A DNA stretch of 7,234 bases. Source: Clostridia bacterium. GTDB lineage: Bacteria; Bacillota; Clostridia; Oscillospirales; Butyricicoccaceae. Every line of letters begins with the position of its first letter. The stretch's first letter is position 1. The notes beneath the pieces were generated by a model. The model was given only the letters and a program-made list of their open reading frames with translations, made no database searches and was not told where the DNA came from. The position numbers and the translations under genes are program-made. Positions 1-7,190 of the stretch are shown here, piece after piece. The stretch lies in NCBI GenBank assembly GCA_017407765.1, contig JAFQVZ010000296.1, forward strand, positions 1 through 7,234. Direction: 5' to 3'.

Positions 1-309
1 AACGGAGTGCCGAGGGTAAGTGTGGGCATAAAGGCAGATTTCCGCCTTAGGGATATGCCGGAGCATACAGCAGAGGTATATGAGGCGGCGCTTGAGAAGC
101 GCCTTGTTTCGGAAGGTTATGAGGTGTTTGAGAGGCTCAAAGCCTCGGCCTGTGATGCTTTAGGGGCGGGGCAGCAGCTGAGCCGGCTTTCGCCCTCGGT
201 GTGGGAGCAGACGGAGGGCAGATGGCATGAGCTTTTTTCGCAGGCCGAGCTGGAGCTTGAGGTCGACTGCCGCCTCGAAAGCCGAGGCAAGACGGAGGGA
301 ATGGAATGA
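1..309 (+). CDS. Ger(x)C/GerAC-family spore germination protein, C-terminal fragment (cut by window start)
   Basis: The frame is open from base 1 and ends at TGA 307-309. The visible 102 codons are the C-terminal part of a protein that normally runs to about 370-400 residues, so the real start and the expected lipoprotein signal lie outside the window. A GTG at 7 is not a credible start because the family domain is already under way there. The end shows the GerAC C-terminal pattern: an amphipathic helix (VYEAALEKRLVSEGYEVFER), an 'A-x-D-x-LGxG' element, then 'LSPSVWEQTEGRWHELF' followed by the alternating beta strand 'AELELEVDCRLESRG'. In the family, this subunit is a lipid-anchored part of the germinant receptor in the spore inner membrane and works with GerAA and GerAB. 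The stop overlaps the start of the next gene, as expected for an A-C-B type ger operon. The family call is by pattern recognition, without a database search. Confidence 0.85.
   Translation, partial: NGVPRVSVGIKADFRLRDMPEHTAEVYEAALEKRLVSEGYEVFERLKASACDALGAGQQLSRLSPSVWEQTEGRWHELFSQAELELEVDCRLESRGKTEGME
294..298 (+). promoter_or_regulatory. Ribosome binding site of the GerAB-type gene
   Basis: GGAGG sits 7 nt before the ATG at 306 and lies inside the 3' end of the preceding ger gene. It supports the ATG at 306, whose last two bases begin the upstream TGA (ATGA overlap), so the two genes are probably translationally coupled. Confidence 0.75.
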
Positions 310-1343
310 GCCATAAACTGAGCACATACCGGGTGTTTGCGGCGGTGTTTCTCTTTCTTAACGCAGGCAGCATAAACACCGGTCTCGAGCCGATGGGCAA
401 GGCGACATGGCTGGGATGTCTTGCCGCATCAGCTGTGGCGGCGCTTATGGTGCCGCTTATGATAAAGGTGTGCCGGGGTGCGGATGCTGACGGGCGGGCT
501 GCGAGAGGGGCGGCCTCGGTAATGGCGGCGGCAGCCCTGCTTTCGGGAGGGGTGCTGCTGGGGCAGTTCCGCATATTTGTAGCGACCTATAACGAACTTG
601 TGCCTTCGCCCGCCCTTGTGGCGCTGGTGATCGGCGCCGCGGCCCTTTATCTCAGCTGCCTGAGAGGGCACGGGCTGTGGCGGTATTGCGAGGCGGCCTT
701 TGCCGCGGTCATTTTTCTGCTGGCGGTGTCGGTGTTTATCGGCATAAATGAGGCCGACCCCATGCGTCTTCTGCCCCTTTGGCAGGGAGAGGGCGGCCGC
801 GGCATTGCCGATGTGCTTAAGGTGTACGGCAGCTTTTTTGCCGATGTTTTTGCCGTACTTTATGTGCTGGCAGGCAGCAGCGACGACCGTGAGCTGATCG
901 CGGGCTCGCGGTGGGGCATAGCGGCGGCAGGGCTTATCATGGCGCTGTTCAGGGTCAAGTGTATCGGCATTATCGGATATATCACGGCGCGGCGCTACAC
1001 CTTTCCGGTGTATGCCCTGTCGGGGCTTCAGCGCATAGGCAGCTACGGCATCCATATCGAGGATGTGATCACCTGCGCGCTGGCAGCGGCGAGGATCATT
1101 AAGCTTGCAGTCATCATAAGGTTCTGCGCCGCCTGCTTCGGGGTTCTGAGGGGCCGAAGATCTGAAGGGCCGCTGCCGAATGCGGCGGCTGCAGCCTTCA
1201 TCGTTATATTCGCCGTGTTTGTCATCGGCAGCGATGCCGTTATGGATCTGTGGCTGAACAGGCTTTGGATATCGGGCCTGGCAGCCTTTGTGGCGCTGCC
1301 CCTTGCGGCATATCATTGGATAAAAAGAAGCGGCAGGACATAG
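306..1343 (+). CDS. GerAB-family spore germination permease (APC superfamily)
   Basis: The 345-residue protein is almost entirely hydrophobic, with about ten likely membrane helices (roughly residues 8-23, 34-53, 68-90, 101-118, 126-146, 170-190, 202-226, 254-280, 293-312 and 321-340). Family members are usually 360-370 residues, so this one is slightly short. Recognisable GerAB features are the 'NEADPMRLLPLW' segment after helix 5, where family members have a 'NLLPv' stretch, and 'YTFPVYALSGLQRIG...IHIEDVI' near residues 231-255. The latter corresponds to the 'yPvlel.r.i..gdfl.r.D' region of the spore permease domain. In the germinant receptor, this subunit is the integral membrane protein thought to bind the amino acid or sugar germinant in the spore inner membrane. 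It overlaps the upstream GerC-type gene by 4 bp, and a terminator closes the operon right at its stop codon. The spore-specific (probably sigma-G) promoter would be upstream of the window. The germinant cannot be predicted from sequence. Confidence 0.85.
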   Translation: MSHKLSTYRVFAAVFLFLNAGSINTGLEPMGKATWLGCLAASAVAALMVPLMIKVCRGADADGRAARGAASVMAAAALLSGGVLLGQFRIFVATYNELVPSPALVALVIGAAALYLSCLRGHGLWRYCEAAFAAVIFLLAVSVFIGINEADPMRLLPLWQGEGGRGIADVLKVYGSFFADVFAVLYVLAGSSDDRELIAGSRWGIAAAGLIMALFRVKCIGIIGYITARRYTFPVYALSGLQRIGSYGIHIEDVITCALAAARIIKLAVIIRFCAACFGVLRGRRSEGPLPNAAAAAFIVIFAVFVIGSDAVMDLWLNRLWISGLAAFVALPLAAYHWIKRSGRT

Positions 1344-2686: not shown

Positions 2687-2737
2687 AAAAAAGCGCCGGA
2701 CCCTGTCTTCTGTGGCCTAATGACAGGATTCCCGCGC
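2687..2737 (-). terminator. Leader (attenuator) terminator upstream of the MATE gene
   Basis: On the - strand, the 5' arm GCGCGGGAATCCTGTC (2737-2722) pairs with the 3' arm GACAGGGTCCGGCGC (2707-2693). The pairing is 6 bp, a G-U pair, a bulged A, 3 bp, a G-G mismatch and 4 bp of GCGC, closing a 14-nt loop. A run of six T (2692-2687) follows directly. The hairpin lies between promoter and start codon and would abort transcription before the gene unless it is disrupted, for example by the competing stem described for the leader RNA. Confidence 0.75.
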
Positions 2738-2756
2738 GTCTGTCCTCTACCCGGCG
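2687..2756 (-). ncRNA. Candidate riboswitch controlling the MATE gene, possibly guanidine-IV (mepA motif)
   Basis: The leader RNA can form two mutually exclusive folds. In one, CGCCGGGT (2756-2749) pairs with GTCCGGCG (2701-2694), 8 bp with two G-U pairs. This sequesters the 3' arm of the terminator. In the other, the terminator hairpin forms. A third element, GACAG (2744-2740), can pair with CTGTC (2726-2722), which is also part of the terminator 5' arm. The loops ACGCGCGGGAATC and ATTAGGCCACAGAA are the sort of unpaired purine-rich segments that form a ligand pocket. It is established that guanidine-IV riboswitches in Clostridia sit upstream of MepA-type MATE genes, use two hairpins and overlap an intrinsic terminator, and this region matches in position, size and downstream gene. 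The class was not confirmed against a covariance model. A protein-dependent or other ligand-dependent attenuator is the alternative. The extent given covers only the paired elements. Confidence 0.6.
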
Positions 2757-2787
2757 GCAAAGGAAGAGTTTATTCTTTATCGGCCCT

Positions 2788-2824: not shown

Positions 2825-2854
2825 TTGACAGTCCTATAAAGATGGCGCTATAAT
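2825..2854 (+). promoter_or_regulatory. Consensus sigma-A promoter of typA
   Basis: TTGACA (2825-2830) and TATAAT (2849-2854) are both perfect consensus hexamers with an 18-nt spacer. Transcription should start near 2861, leaving a 5' leader of about 33 nt that contains the ribosome binding site AAGGGG (2878-2883), 10 nt before the typA ATG. This predicts strong constitutive expression. Confidence 0.9.
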
Positions 2855-4948: not shown

Positions 4949-5803
4949 ATGAAGAAATACGAAATCGTTTTGAAGAAAGCTCTCAAGCCCGACATCACAA
5001 TGATGGAGATCTATGCACCCCTTATCGCCAAGAAGGCTAAGGCTGGTCAGTTCATCATCTTCAGAGTTGATGCTGAGGGCGAAAGAGTACCCCTGACTAT
5101 CGCTTACACAGATAAGGAAAAGGGTTCCGTTGCTATCATCTTCCAGAAGGTCGGTGCTTCGACACTTGCTCTGGACGAGCTCAACGAGGGCGATTGCCTG
5201 CATGACTTCGTAGGTCCTCTGGGCGTTCCCACAGAGATCGAGAAGATGGGCAAGAAGGTTGCTGTCGTTGGCGGCGGCGCCGGCTGCGCTATCGCATATC
5301 CCATCGCTAAGGCTCTGCACGAGGCTGGCGCTGAGGTTCATACAATCGCAGGCTTCCGTAACAAGGACCTCATCATCCTCGAAGAGGAGATGGGCAAGGC
5401 TTGCACAGAGCTGCACATGTGCACAGATATCGGTGACTACGGCTTCCACGGCTTCGGCACAGATATGCTGAAGAAGCTCATCGAAGAAGGCCACAAGTTC
5501 GACCACGTTGTCGCTATCGGCCCCCTCATGATGATGAAGTTCGTCTGCAAGCTCACAAAGGAGTATGACATCCCCACAACCATCTCCATGAACCCCATCA
5601 TGGTAGACGGCACAGGCATGTGCGGCTGCTGCCGTGTAACAGTCGGCGGCGAGACAAAGTTTGCATGTGTTGACGGTCCTGACTTTGACGGTCACCTCGT
5701 AGACTTTGACGAAGTCATCGCTCGTAACAATTCCTACAAGCCCTTCGAGGCCAAGAAGAAGGAAGAACATATCTGCAGATTGAGAGGTAAGACAAATGCC
5801 TAA
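4949..5803 (+). CDS. nfnA: NfnA, small subunit of NADH-dependent reduced ferredoxin:NADP+ oxidoreductase
   Basis: The 284-residue protein belongs to the ferredoxin-NADP+ reductase-like family shared with PyrK and sulfide dehydrogenase SudB. It has an FAD-binding beta barrel with 'ERVPLTIAY' (about 45-53), an NAD(H)-binding Rossmann fold with 'VAVVGGGAGCAIAYPIAKAL' (104-123), and a C-terminal [2Fe-2S] site. That site aligns with the PyrK C-x4-C-x2-C-x11-C motif, but the first position is Asp220, followed by Cys225, Cys228 and Cys240. One Asp plus three Cys is the ligand set known for NfnA, which favours this over PyrK. Together with NfnB it forms the soluble complex that couples NADPH oxidation or formation to NAD(H) and ferredoxin by flavin-based electron bifurcation. 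In this family, the small-subunit FAD exchanges electrons with NAD(H). No pyrD neighbour is visible and nfnB overlaps by 8 bp. Without the partner gene the annotation would be 'sulfide/dihydroorotate dehydrogenase-like FAD/NAD-binding protein'. Confidence 0.92.
   Translation: MKKYEIVLKKALKPDITMMEIYAPLIAKKAKAGQFIIFRVDAEGERVPLTIAYTDKEKGSVAIIFQKVGASTLALDELNEGDCLHDFVGPLGVPTEIEKMGKKVAVVGGGAGCAIAYPIAKALHEAGAEVHTIAGFRNKDLIILEEEMGKACTELHMCTDIGDYGFHGFGTDMLKKLIEEGHKFDHVVAIGPLMMMKFVCKLTKEYDIPTTISMNPIMVDGTGMCGCCRVTVGGETKFACVDGPDFDGHLVDFDEVIARNNSYKPFEAKKKEEHICRLRGKTNA
5783..5787 (+). promoter_or_regulatory. Ribosome binding site of nfnB
   Basis: AGAGG lies 8 nt before the ATG at 5796, inside the end of nfnA. 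The next in-frame ATG (5805) would be 17 nt away, so the start at 5796 is preferred. The overlap with the nfnA stop suggests coupled translation and a balanced subunit ratio. Confidence 0.65.
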
Positions 5804-7190
5804 CATGTCGCTCACAAAGGTAAAGATGGCAGAGCAGGAGCCCAACGTAAGAAACGCTAACTTCCTCGAAGTTGCACAGGGCTACACACTCGAGCAGGCT
5901 AAGGAAGAAGCCGAGCGCTGCCTCAATTGTAAGAATGCTATGTGCGTTCAGGGCTGCCCTGTAAACGTACCCATCCCCCAGTTCATCGCTAAGATCCGCG
6001 AGGACGATCTGGAGGGCGCATATAAGATCCTCTCCAACGCAAACGCTCTGCCCGCAGTTTCCGGACGTGTATGTCCCCAGGAGACACAGTGCGAGAGCAA
6101 GTGCATCAGAGGCATCAAGGGCGAGCCCGTTGCTATCGGCCGCCTCGAGAGATTCGTTGCTGACTGGGCTCGTGAGAACGGCATCGTCAACATCGAAACA
6201 GCAGAAGCTACAGGCCATAAGGTCGCAGTCATCGGTTCCGGCCCTGCCGGCCTGACATGCGCAGGCGAGCTGGCAAGAAAGGGCCATGACGTAACAGTCT
6301 TCGAGGCTCTGCACGTTGCCGGCGGCGTTCTGTCCTATGGTATCCCCGAGTTCCGTCTCCCCAAGGAGATCGTAAACAAGGAAGTTGAGAACCTCGAGAA
6401 GATGGGCGTTAAGATCGAGACCAACATGGTCATCGGTAAGGTCCTGTCCATCGACGAGCTGCTCGAAGAGATGGGCTTTGAGGCCGTATTCATCGGCTCC
6501 GGCGCCGGTCTCCCCATGTTTGCTAAGATCCCCGGTGAGTCTCTCTGCGGCGTATACTCCGCTAACGAGTACCTCACACGTATCAACCTGATGAAGGCTT
6601 TCCGCGGCGCAGACAACTGCACAACACCCGTACTCGAGAGCCAGAGCGTAGCAGTCATCGGCGGCGGTAACGTTGCTATGGACGCTGCTCGCTGCGCTAA
6701 GAGAATGGGCGCTAAGGAAGTCCATATCGTATACCGCAGAGGCGAGGCAGAGCTTCCCGCACGTAAGGAAGAAGTTCACCACGCTATGGAAGAAGGCATC
6801 ATCTTTGACTTCCTCACAGCTCCCGTATCCATCGAGGGCGATGAGAAGGGCCGTGCATGCAAGCTGCACTGCGTAAAGATGGAGCTGGGCGAGCCCGATG
6901 CTTCCGGCAGACATCGTCCCATCCCCGTAGAGGGCAGCGACTTCGCTATCGAAGTTGACACAGTTATCCCCTCGCTGGGCACATCTCCCAACCCCCTCAT
7001 CCGTTCGACAACACCCGGTCTTGACACAAACAAGAAGGGCTGCATCGTAACAGCTGAGAACGGCTCCACATCGAGAGCTGCTGTCTTCGCAGGCGGCGAC
7101 GCTTCGACAGGTGCTGCTACAGTTATCCTCGCTATGGGCGCAGGCAAGACAGCTGCTGCTTCCATCGACGAGTATCTGAGAAACAAGTAA
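5796..7190 (+). CDS. nfnB: NfnB, large subunit of NADH-dependent reduced ferredoxin:NADP+ oxidoreductase (GltA/GltD-like)
   Basis: The 464-residue protein has the usual length of NfnB and of 'NADPH-dependent glutamate synthase, homotetrameric' database entries, a name that is misleading when nfnA is adjacent. An N-terminal helical domain carries eight or so iron-sulfur ligands for two [4Fe-4S] clusters: Cys42, Cys45, Cys50, Cys54, then Cys93, Cys99 and Cys103. By analogy with dihydropyrimidine dehydrogenase, a non-Cys ligand is expected about 20 residues later; Glu118 in 'GRLERF' fits. An FAD-binding fold follows with GSGPAG (147-152), 'GGVLSYGIPEFRLPKE' (176-191) and a C-terminal FAD motif 'VFAGGDASTGAATVI'. 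The NADP(H)-binding fold inserted between has GGGNVAMDAAR (289-299) and the nearby YRRGEAELPAR. This subunit holds the bifurcating FAD, receives electrons from NADPH and passes one branch to ferredoxin through its clusters. The net reaction links 2 NADPH to NADH and reduced ferredoxin, reversibly, in the cytoplasm. A true glutamate synthase would also need a glutaminase/synthase subunit, which is not seen here. Confidence 0.93.
   Translation: MPNMSLTKVKMAEQEPNVRNANFLEVAQGYTLEQAKEEAERCLNCKNAMCVQGCPVNVPIPQFIAKIREDDLEGAYKILSNANALPAVSGRVCPQETQCESKCIRGIKGEPVAIGRLERFVADWARENGIVNIETAEATGHKVAVIGSGPAGLTCAGELARKGHDVTVFEALHVAGGVLSYGIPEFRLPKEIVNKEVENLEKMGVKIETNMVIGKVLSIDELLEEMGFEAVFIGSGAGLPMFAKIPGESLCGVYSANEYLTRINLMKAFRGADNCTTPVLESQSVAVIGGGNVAMDAARCAKRMGAKEVHIVYRRGEAELPARKEEVHHAMEEGIIFDFLTAPVSIEGDEKGRACKLHCVKMELGEPDASGRHRPIPVEGSDFAIEVDTVIPSLGTSPNPLIRSTTPGLDTNKKGCIVTAENGSTSRAAVFAGGDASTGAATVILAMGAGKTAAASIDEYLRNK

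Follow-up and report, generated by a model that had tools for sequence, protein, structure and literature searches.

What kind of RNA precedes the gene for a MATE-family transporter on the minus strand of the DNA analysed here (the window, a stretch of 7,234 nucleotides from a genome of the Butyricicoccaceae), and to which signal does it respond? The leader, positions 2766-2687 of the minus strand, is very probably a guanidine-IV riboswitch that likely switches transcription of the MATE gene on, and guanidine would be what the transporter exports; the ligand, the direction of the switch and the exported substrate are all assigned by analogy with the class. The class itself has already been described, and the leader is a new example of it. 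This agrees with the preliminary description of the locus, in which a guanidine-IV riboswitch before a MATE gene had been proposed, and it is carried by a covariance model from which the window was left out and by strong compensatory change in related leaders.

A consensus scan places a promoter-like site at 2816-2788 of the minus strand (TTGATT at 2816-2811, a spacer of 17 nt and TATCAT at 2793-2788, with the TG of an extended -10 element); on both strands of 2600-2900 the scan found 3 such sites versus 0.7 in shuffled sequences. Transcription would begin near 2781. The leader contains two hairpins, both supported by sequence, fold and model alignment. The P1 hairpin (2764-2743) has the stem 2764-2757 : 2750-2743 and a loop 1 of the sequence CGCCGG (2756-2751). 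The second hairpin has an upper stem (2728-2722 : 2707-2701) that closes a loop 2 of 14 nt, ATTAGGCCACAGAA (2721-2708), and a bulged lower stem within 2737-2731 : 2700-2693; upper stem, loop 2 and lower stem together, followed by six T (2692-2687), form the intrinsic terminator (2737-2687), as judged from sequence and fold. Between P1 and the closed terminator lies a linker of 5 nt (2742-2738), which is 14 nt long (2742-2729) when only the upper stem of the second hairpin is formed. If P1 is counted as 4 pairs, as in the model, the two linkers are 8 and 18 nt in the window, the medians of 66 leaders being 7 and 18 nt. A ribosome-binding-site-like GGAGG (2679-2675) stands before the ATG (2667-2665) of the MATE gene (2667-1369, 432 aa). 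The leader from 2781 to 2685 folds with -39.1 kcal/mol (z -4.14), a value reached by none of 200 shuffles, and the margin is smaller when the fold is extended past the start codon to 2664 (z -2.52, 4 of 200 shuffles as good). A simple terminator scan, which accepts loops of 3-8 nt, returned 0 sites, the loop of the terminator in the MATE leader being 14 nt. The promoter with its extended -10 and the strong hairpin 2737-2693 with its six T had been pointed out before and are both present; the P1 hairpin was absent from that earlier description.

The upstream regions of related MATE genes share a common pattern, CCGGRT ... YAGGYCNNNGAAG ... terminator. When named genomes were scanned with it, at least 115 stretches were obtained, of which 107 were kept and eight (L081, L100, L118, L126, L128, L157, L173, L175) were dropped by eye as chance matches, their hairpins being missing. 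Because the pattern fixes most loop letters, conservation of these letters in the 107 leaders is by construction; the purine (R) of loop 1 and the pyrimidine (Y) of loop 2 were, however, left free of each other. Among the matches listed, this R-Y kissing pair is A-U in 80 and G-C in 27 of the 107 leaders, with no mismatch, and with the eight dropped stretches restored the at least 115 stretches give A/T 81, G/C 29, G/T 3 and A/C 2. A looser pattern, which matched in 47 of the 87 genomes of the window's family, many of the matches being chance, was discarded since a control with the reversed pattern was also positive.

Forty of the 107 pattern-found leaders, the window left out, served to build a covariance model (R1). 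It matches the window over the full length of riboswitch and terminator (2766-2687, minus strand) with 60.4 bits (E 8.7e-16; genome-wide E 2.1e-13). In A2, for which 40 leaders were aligned and the pseudoknot was annotated, 97.8% of 870 cells are paired and changes on both sides are seen in 17 of the 22 pairs. The covariation score of A2 is 0.657, compared with a mean of 0.263 in shuffled alignments (0 of 500 as high) and with 0.08-0.12 for slid partners. Both-side changes occur at 2 of the 4 modelled pairs of P1, at 6 of the 7 pairs of the upper stem of the second hairpin, where 100% of the cells are paired, and at 8 of 8 modelled pairs of the terminator lower stem, and the other two kissing pairs (C-G) are invariant by construction of the pattern. 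The kissing pair is predicted to join G2755 C2754 C2753 of loop 1 to G2717 G2716 C2715 of loop 2. Sixty-six R1 matches, found by the model rather than by the pattern, carry (with the window counted in and certain loci present in duplicate) the kissing triplets GCC/GGC (34), ACC/GGU (25), GCC/GGU (6) and CCC/GGG (1).

Within the window's family R1 finds a match at E 0.001 in 43 of 87 genomes, and at the loci around relatives of the MATE protein a strong match (E <= 3.2e-10) in 8 of 30, the window's own locus counted; three further matches among these 30 loci (E 0.07-0.1) were taken as chance. Weaker matches, one elsewhere in the window (12.3 bits at 4782-4728) and two in the same genome (C228, 22.0 bits; C334, 19.5 bits), lack loop 2 and were set aside as plain hairpins.

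Some related leaders have other loop letters. The genome of Raoultibacter timonensis holds a weaker second match (L183:1501-1587, minus strand) with loop 1 CCCCGG and loop 2 GTAGGGC, whose kissing pair is C-G, a further pair type. Three leaders (L265, L266, L269) have loop 1 TGCCGA and loop 2 GTCAGGTCTTNGCA and are possibly a further sub-type; radical SAM proteins (PF04055) are encoded after L265 and L269, and the protein after L266 starts alike.

The genes that follow the 107 leaders, assigned via blastp with one reference per class and with a Pfam check of one representative each of PnuC, SugE, GNAT and PNPOx-like, are among the matches listed PnuC-like in 57 cases, MATE in 22, SugE in 11, PNPOx-like in 4 and GNAT in 1, with 6 others and 6 leaders for which no ORF was found. 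SugE, PnuC and MATE are named as guanidine-IV genes in the text of PMC7736828 and GNAT in that of PMC9788692; a PNPOx-like gene is not named for guanidine-IV in the text of either. The window has the gene context of guanidine-IV, namely a MATE gene, and one of the leader-bearing clade described below. Among the leaders found is also the sugE leader of R. timonensis (L120), which is presumably the same RNA as 92 Rti, the R. timonensis emrE (sugE) leader that binds guanidine with a KD of 190 uM (PMC7736828); the identification goes by organism and gene, since the text of that paper prints no sequence. Loop 1 of L120, CGCCGG, is identical to that of the window, and its loop 2, GTTAGGCCATAGAA, departs from ATTAGGCCACAGAA at two places, the first base and a base of the spacer. 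The gene behind L120 encodes an SMR exporter (PF00893), whereas that in the window encodes a MATE protein.

With guanidine-IV (GGAM-1, mepA motif), as portrayed in the text of PMC7736828 and PMC12186494, the leader shares the two hairpins, of which the 3' one is the terminator, and the MATE gene downstream; it also shares the loop-loop pseudoknot, here predicted between GCC (2755-2753) and GGC (2717-2715), and conserved loop nucleotides. It differs in that the first base of loop 2 is A rather than the commoner G, and in that the terminator arm is GC-rich and could also pair with loop 1. Mutations are on record for 95 Lla, the RNA of L. lactis, in which according to the text of PMC7736828 mutation of G66 or G72 abolished binding; in loop 2 of this RNA G66, U67 and G72 are highly conserved, G62 is 90% conserved and thus not absolute, and replacing G62 by C made the response much weaker and altered the fold as well. 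If the numbering is matched as we assume, the window keeps the equivalents of G66 and G72 (G2716 and G2710), position 67 would be C2715, opposite G2755 in the kissing pair, a combination that R. timonensis shows too, and the equivalent of G62 would be A2721; the affinity may therefore be lower. Among the matches listed the first base of loop 2 is G in 84, A in 20 and C in 3 of the 107 leaders, the three C rows having a loop one base shorter. An A is found in 5 of the 11 SugE-linked leaders listed (L098, L113, L154, L159, L167), and A therefore fits a guanidine sensor, even if it may change the affinity.

The A in loop 2 is also one of the points that could speak for Gd4v, a variant of guanidine-IV with unknown ligand and an extra hairpin on the terminator, most often found before genes for PRK07324 aminotransferases (more than half of its members) and sometimes before MATE genes (text of PMC9788692). 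If the leader were a Gd4v RNA, guanidine would not be the signal. The overall architecture is the same, Gd4v RNAs before MATE genes are also on record and the variant is enriched in guts (text of PMC9788692), and the window's own genome contains a Gd4v-like leader before a PRK07324 gene. The window lacks, however, the extra hairpin in loop 2 (D2): its loop 2 has 14 nt, as against 31 nt in the Gd4v-like leader of the same genome (L177), and among the 66 R1 matches loop 2 measures 13-14 nt in 62 and 24-31 nt in 4, two of the latter being PRK07324-linked, one GNAT-linked and one SugE-linked. The window moreover keeps GAAG and the C after GGY, whereas the two PRK07324-linked leaders have A after GGY and have lost the first G of GAAG. 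The gene downstream is MATE and not PRK07324, which is weak evidence because MATE occurs with both motifs. Since loop 2 has 14 nt and both C after GGY and GAAG are kept, the window groups with guanidine-IV, and we regard a Gd4v identity as quite improbable.

Two other readings do without a ligand-binding kissing loop. The preliminary description had put the switch into a direct helix, 2756-2749 : 2701-2694, exclusive with the terminator hairpin, and the leader could in principle be a plain attenuator that works through this helix. In the window all 8 pairs can indeed form (6 G-C, 2 G-U), and at least 7 are possible in 8 of 29 leaders of the family. Yet 8 of 8 pairs are reached by only 1 of 75 pattern-found leaders (the first 75 of the 107) and 1 of the 29 others from the family, several of which are the same places twice, and the MATE leader of the same genus (L191) reaches 5 of 8. 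It is the kissing pair that is conserved instead, which makes the plain attenuator very unlikely. A further short helix of the preliminary description, 2744-2740 : 2726-2722, exists with its 5 pairs, but over 66 leaders helices of this kind do not exceed in length those obtained after shuffling the linkers (mean 3.80 versus 3.96 pairs; for the window 5 versus 4.62). As far as comparison of sequences goes, the conserved interaction is the loop-loop kissing pair and not the direct antiterminator helix. In the other reading the leader would be only a constitutive terminator that resembles the aptamer by chance. Rfam 15 has no match in the window: neither at the gathering score nor with E relaxed to 10 did a search give anything but a chance snoRNA. 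The same was obtained around the R. timonensis sugE leader, and the miss on the window is therefore uninformative; the scan with Rfam covariance models that had been suggested for this locus stays silent, and it is our own model R1 that scores. Given the genome-wide E value of R1 and the fact that related MATE genes of other genera are preceded by leaders that match, a chance likeness is extremely improbable. That Rfam 15 overlooks even the R. timonensis yardstick means that switches of this sort can escape an annotation which relies on Rfam only.

The guanidine-IV reading suggests how the switch would work. In the published model guanidine stabilises the kissing of the loops, and the linker blocks closure of the lower stem (text of PMC7736828, PMC11611296 and PMC12186494). 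From its anatomy the window would fit this model, with a linker that measures 5 nt when the terminator is closed and 14 nt when the upper stem stands alone. A guanidinium ion near both loops would stabilise the contact between loop 1 and loop 2; the kissing loops together with the short 5-nt linker would keep the lower terminator stem open, and the polymerase would read on. Without guanidine the full hairpin followed by U6 would form and transcription would stop. The MATE transporter, once made, would export guanidine.

The transporter itself had been called MepA-like. It is a member of the MatE family (PF01554, 111 bits), but with 83.6 bits versus a cut-off of 850 for the MepA model NF000131 the narrower name is loose, and the protein fails to reach the cut-off of any of the 10 NCBIfam models listed for it, MepA included. 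A tree was computed from 39 MATE proteins: that of the window, those of 28 of the 30 relative loci (L001 being left out as identical with the window and L007 as truncated at the end of its contig), and 10 of 15 leader-linked MATE proteins, these 10 being chosen for having the leader. In it 17 of the 18 leader-bearing proteins, that of the window included, fall into one clade (99/99), which contains none of the 21 leaderless rows and spans several families of the Bacillota. The sole exception is L012, which has the leader and lies outside the clade. The MATE protein is likely a guanidine exporter, by analogy with the riboswitch-linked SugE proteins (discussion of PMC7736828). Since the sampled leader-bearing MATE proteins form one clade with a single exception, guanidine export is a concrete and testable substrate proposal for such transporters. 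One more MATE gene would thereby be tied to guanidine, where such transporters are otherwise annotated only as MATE efflux.

The Gd4v-like leader in the window's genome (G000:C95:1865-1968 = L177:1501-1604, plus strand) is a weaker match to R1 (29.4 bits), has an added hairpin in its loop 2 and precedes a gene whose protein scores 539.7 bits with PRK07324 (cut-off 476). The next-best models for this enzyme, both below their cut-offs, are GntC (280 bits) and VioD (242.2 bits). GntC is the gamma-hydroxyarginine cyclodehydratase and VioD the capreomycidine synthase; this hints that the substrate of the enzyme, and perhaps the ligand of Gd4v, may be an arginine-derived guanidino compound. A Gd4v-like leader was found upstream of the PRK07324 gene at 2 of 7 loci (L214, a twin of L177, and L274). 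It was not found with R1 at locus L215, nor with a regular expression at L273, L275 and L277. At the remaining locus a Gd4v-like leader lies behind the PRK07324 gene and before an ORF for a membrane protein of 149 aa (L276:2659 onward, plus strand); R1 gives no match at this locus at E 0.001. Another leader of Gd4v-like form, with 24 nt in loop 2 and a predicted extra hairpin (L272:1501-1593, plus strand; from a genome belonging to the same class as Veillonella sp. R32), precedes a SugE-like ORF of 90 aa (52.5% to SugE of R. timonensis).

Since one genome holds both a guanidine-IV leader and a Gd4v-like one, the two make a matched pair for the question of the Gd4v ligand. One may even think of two sister sensors, guanidine-IV on the MATE gene and Gd4v on an arginine-type aminotransferase gene, with the leader carrying A2721 tuned to a substituted guanidine, although we hold this extension to be unlikely.

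Other features of the window may be mentioned. At 306-1343 (plus strand) an ORF matches an endospore germination permease model weakly (30.8 bits versus a cut-off of 139.55). A sigma-70-type promoter with 12 of 12 consensus positions and an 18-nt spacer (2825-2854, plus strand) adjoins the MATE promoter and belongs to a divergent typA/bipA gene. Further downstream on the plus strand, the product of 4949-5803 is over the cut-off of PRK06222 (sulfide/dihydroorotate dehydrogenase-like FAD/NAD-binding) and that of 5796-7190, a gene overlapping the former, over the cut-off of gltA (NADPH-dependent glutamate synthase), an overlapping pair which we take to be arranged as in NfnAB-type enzymes.
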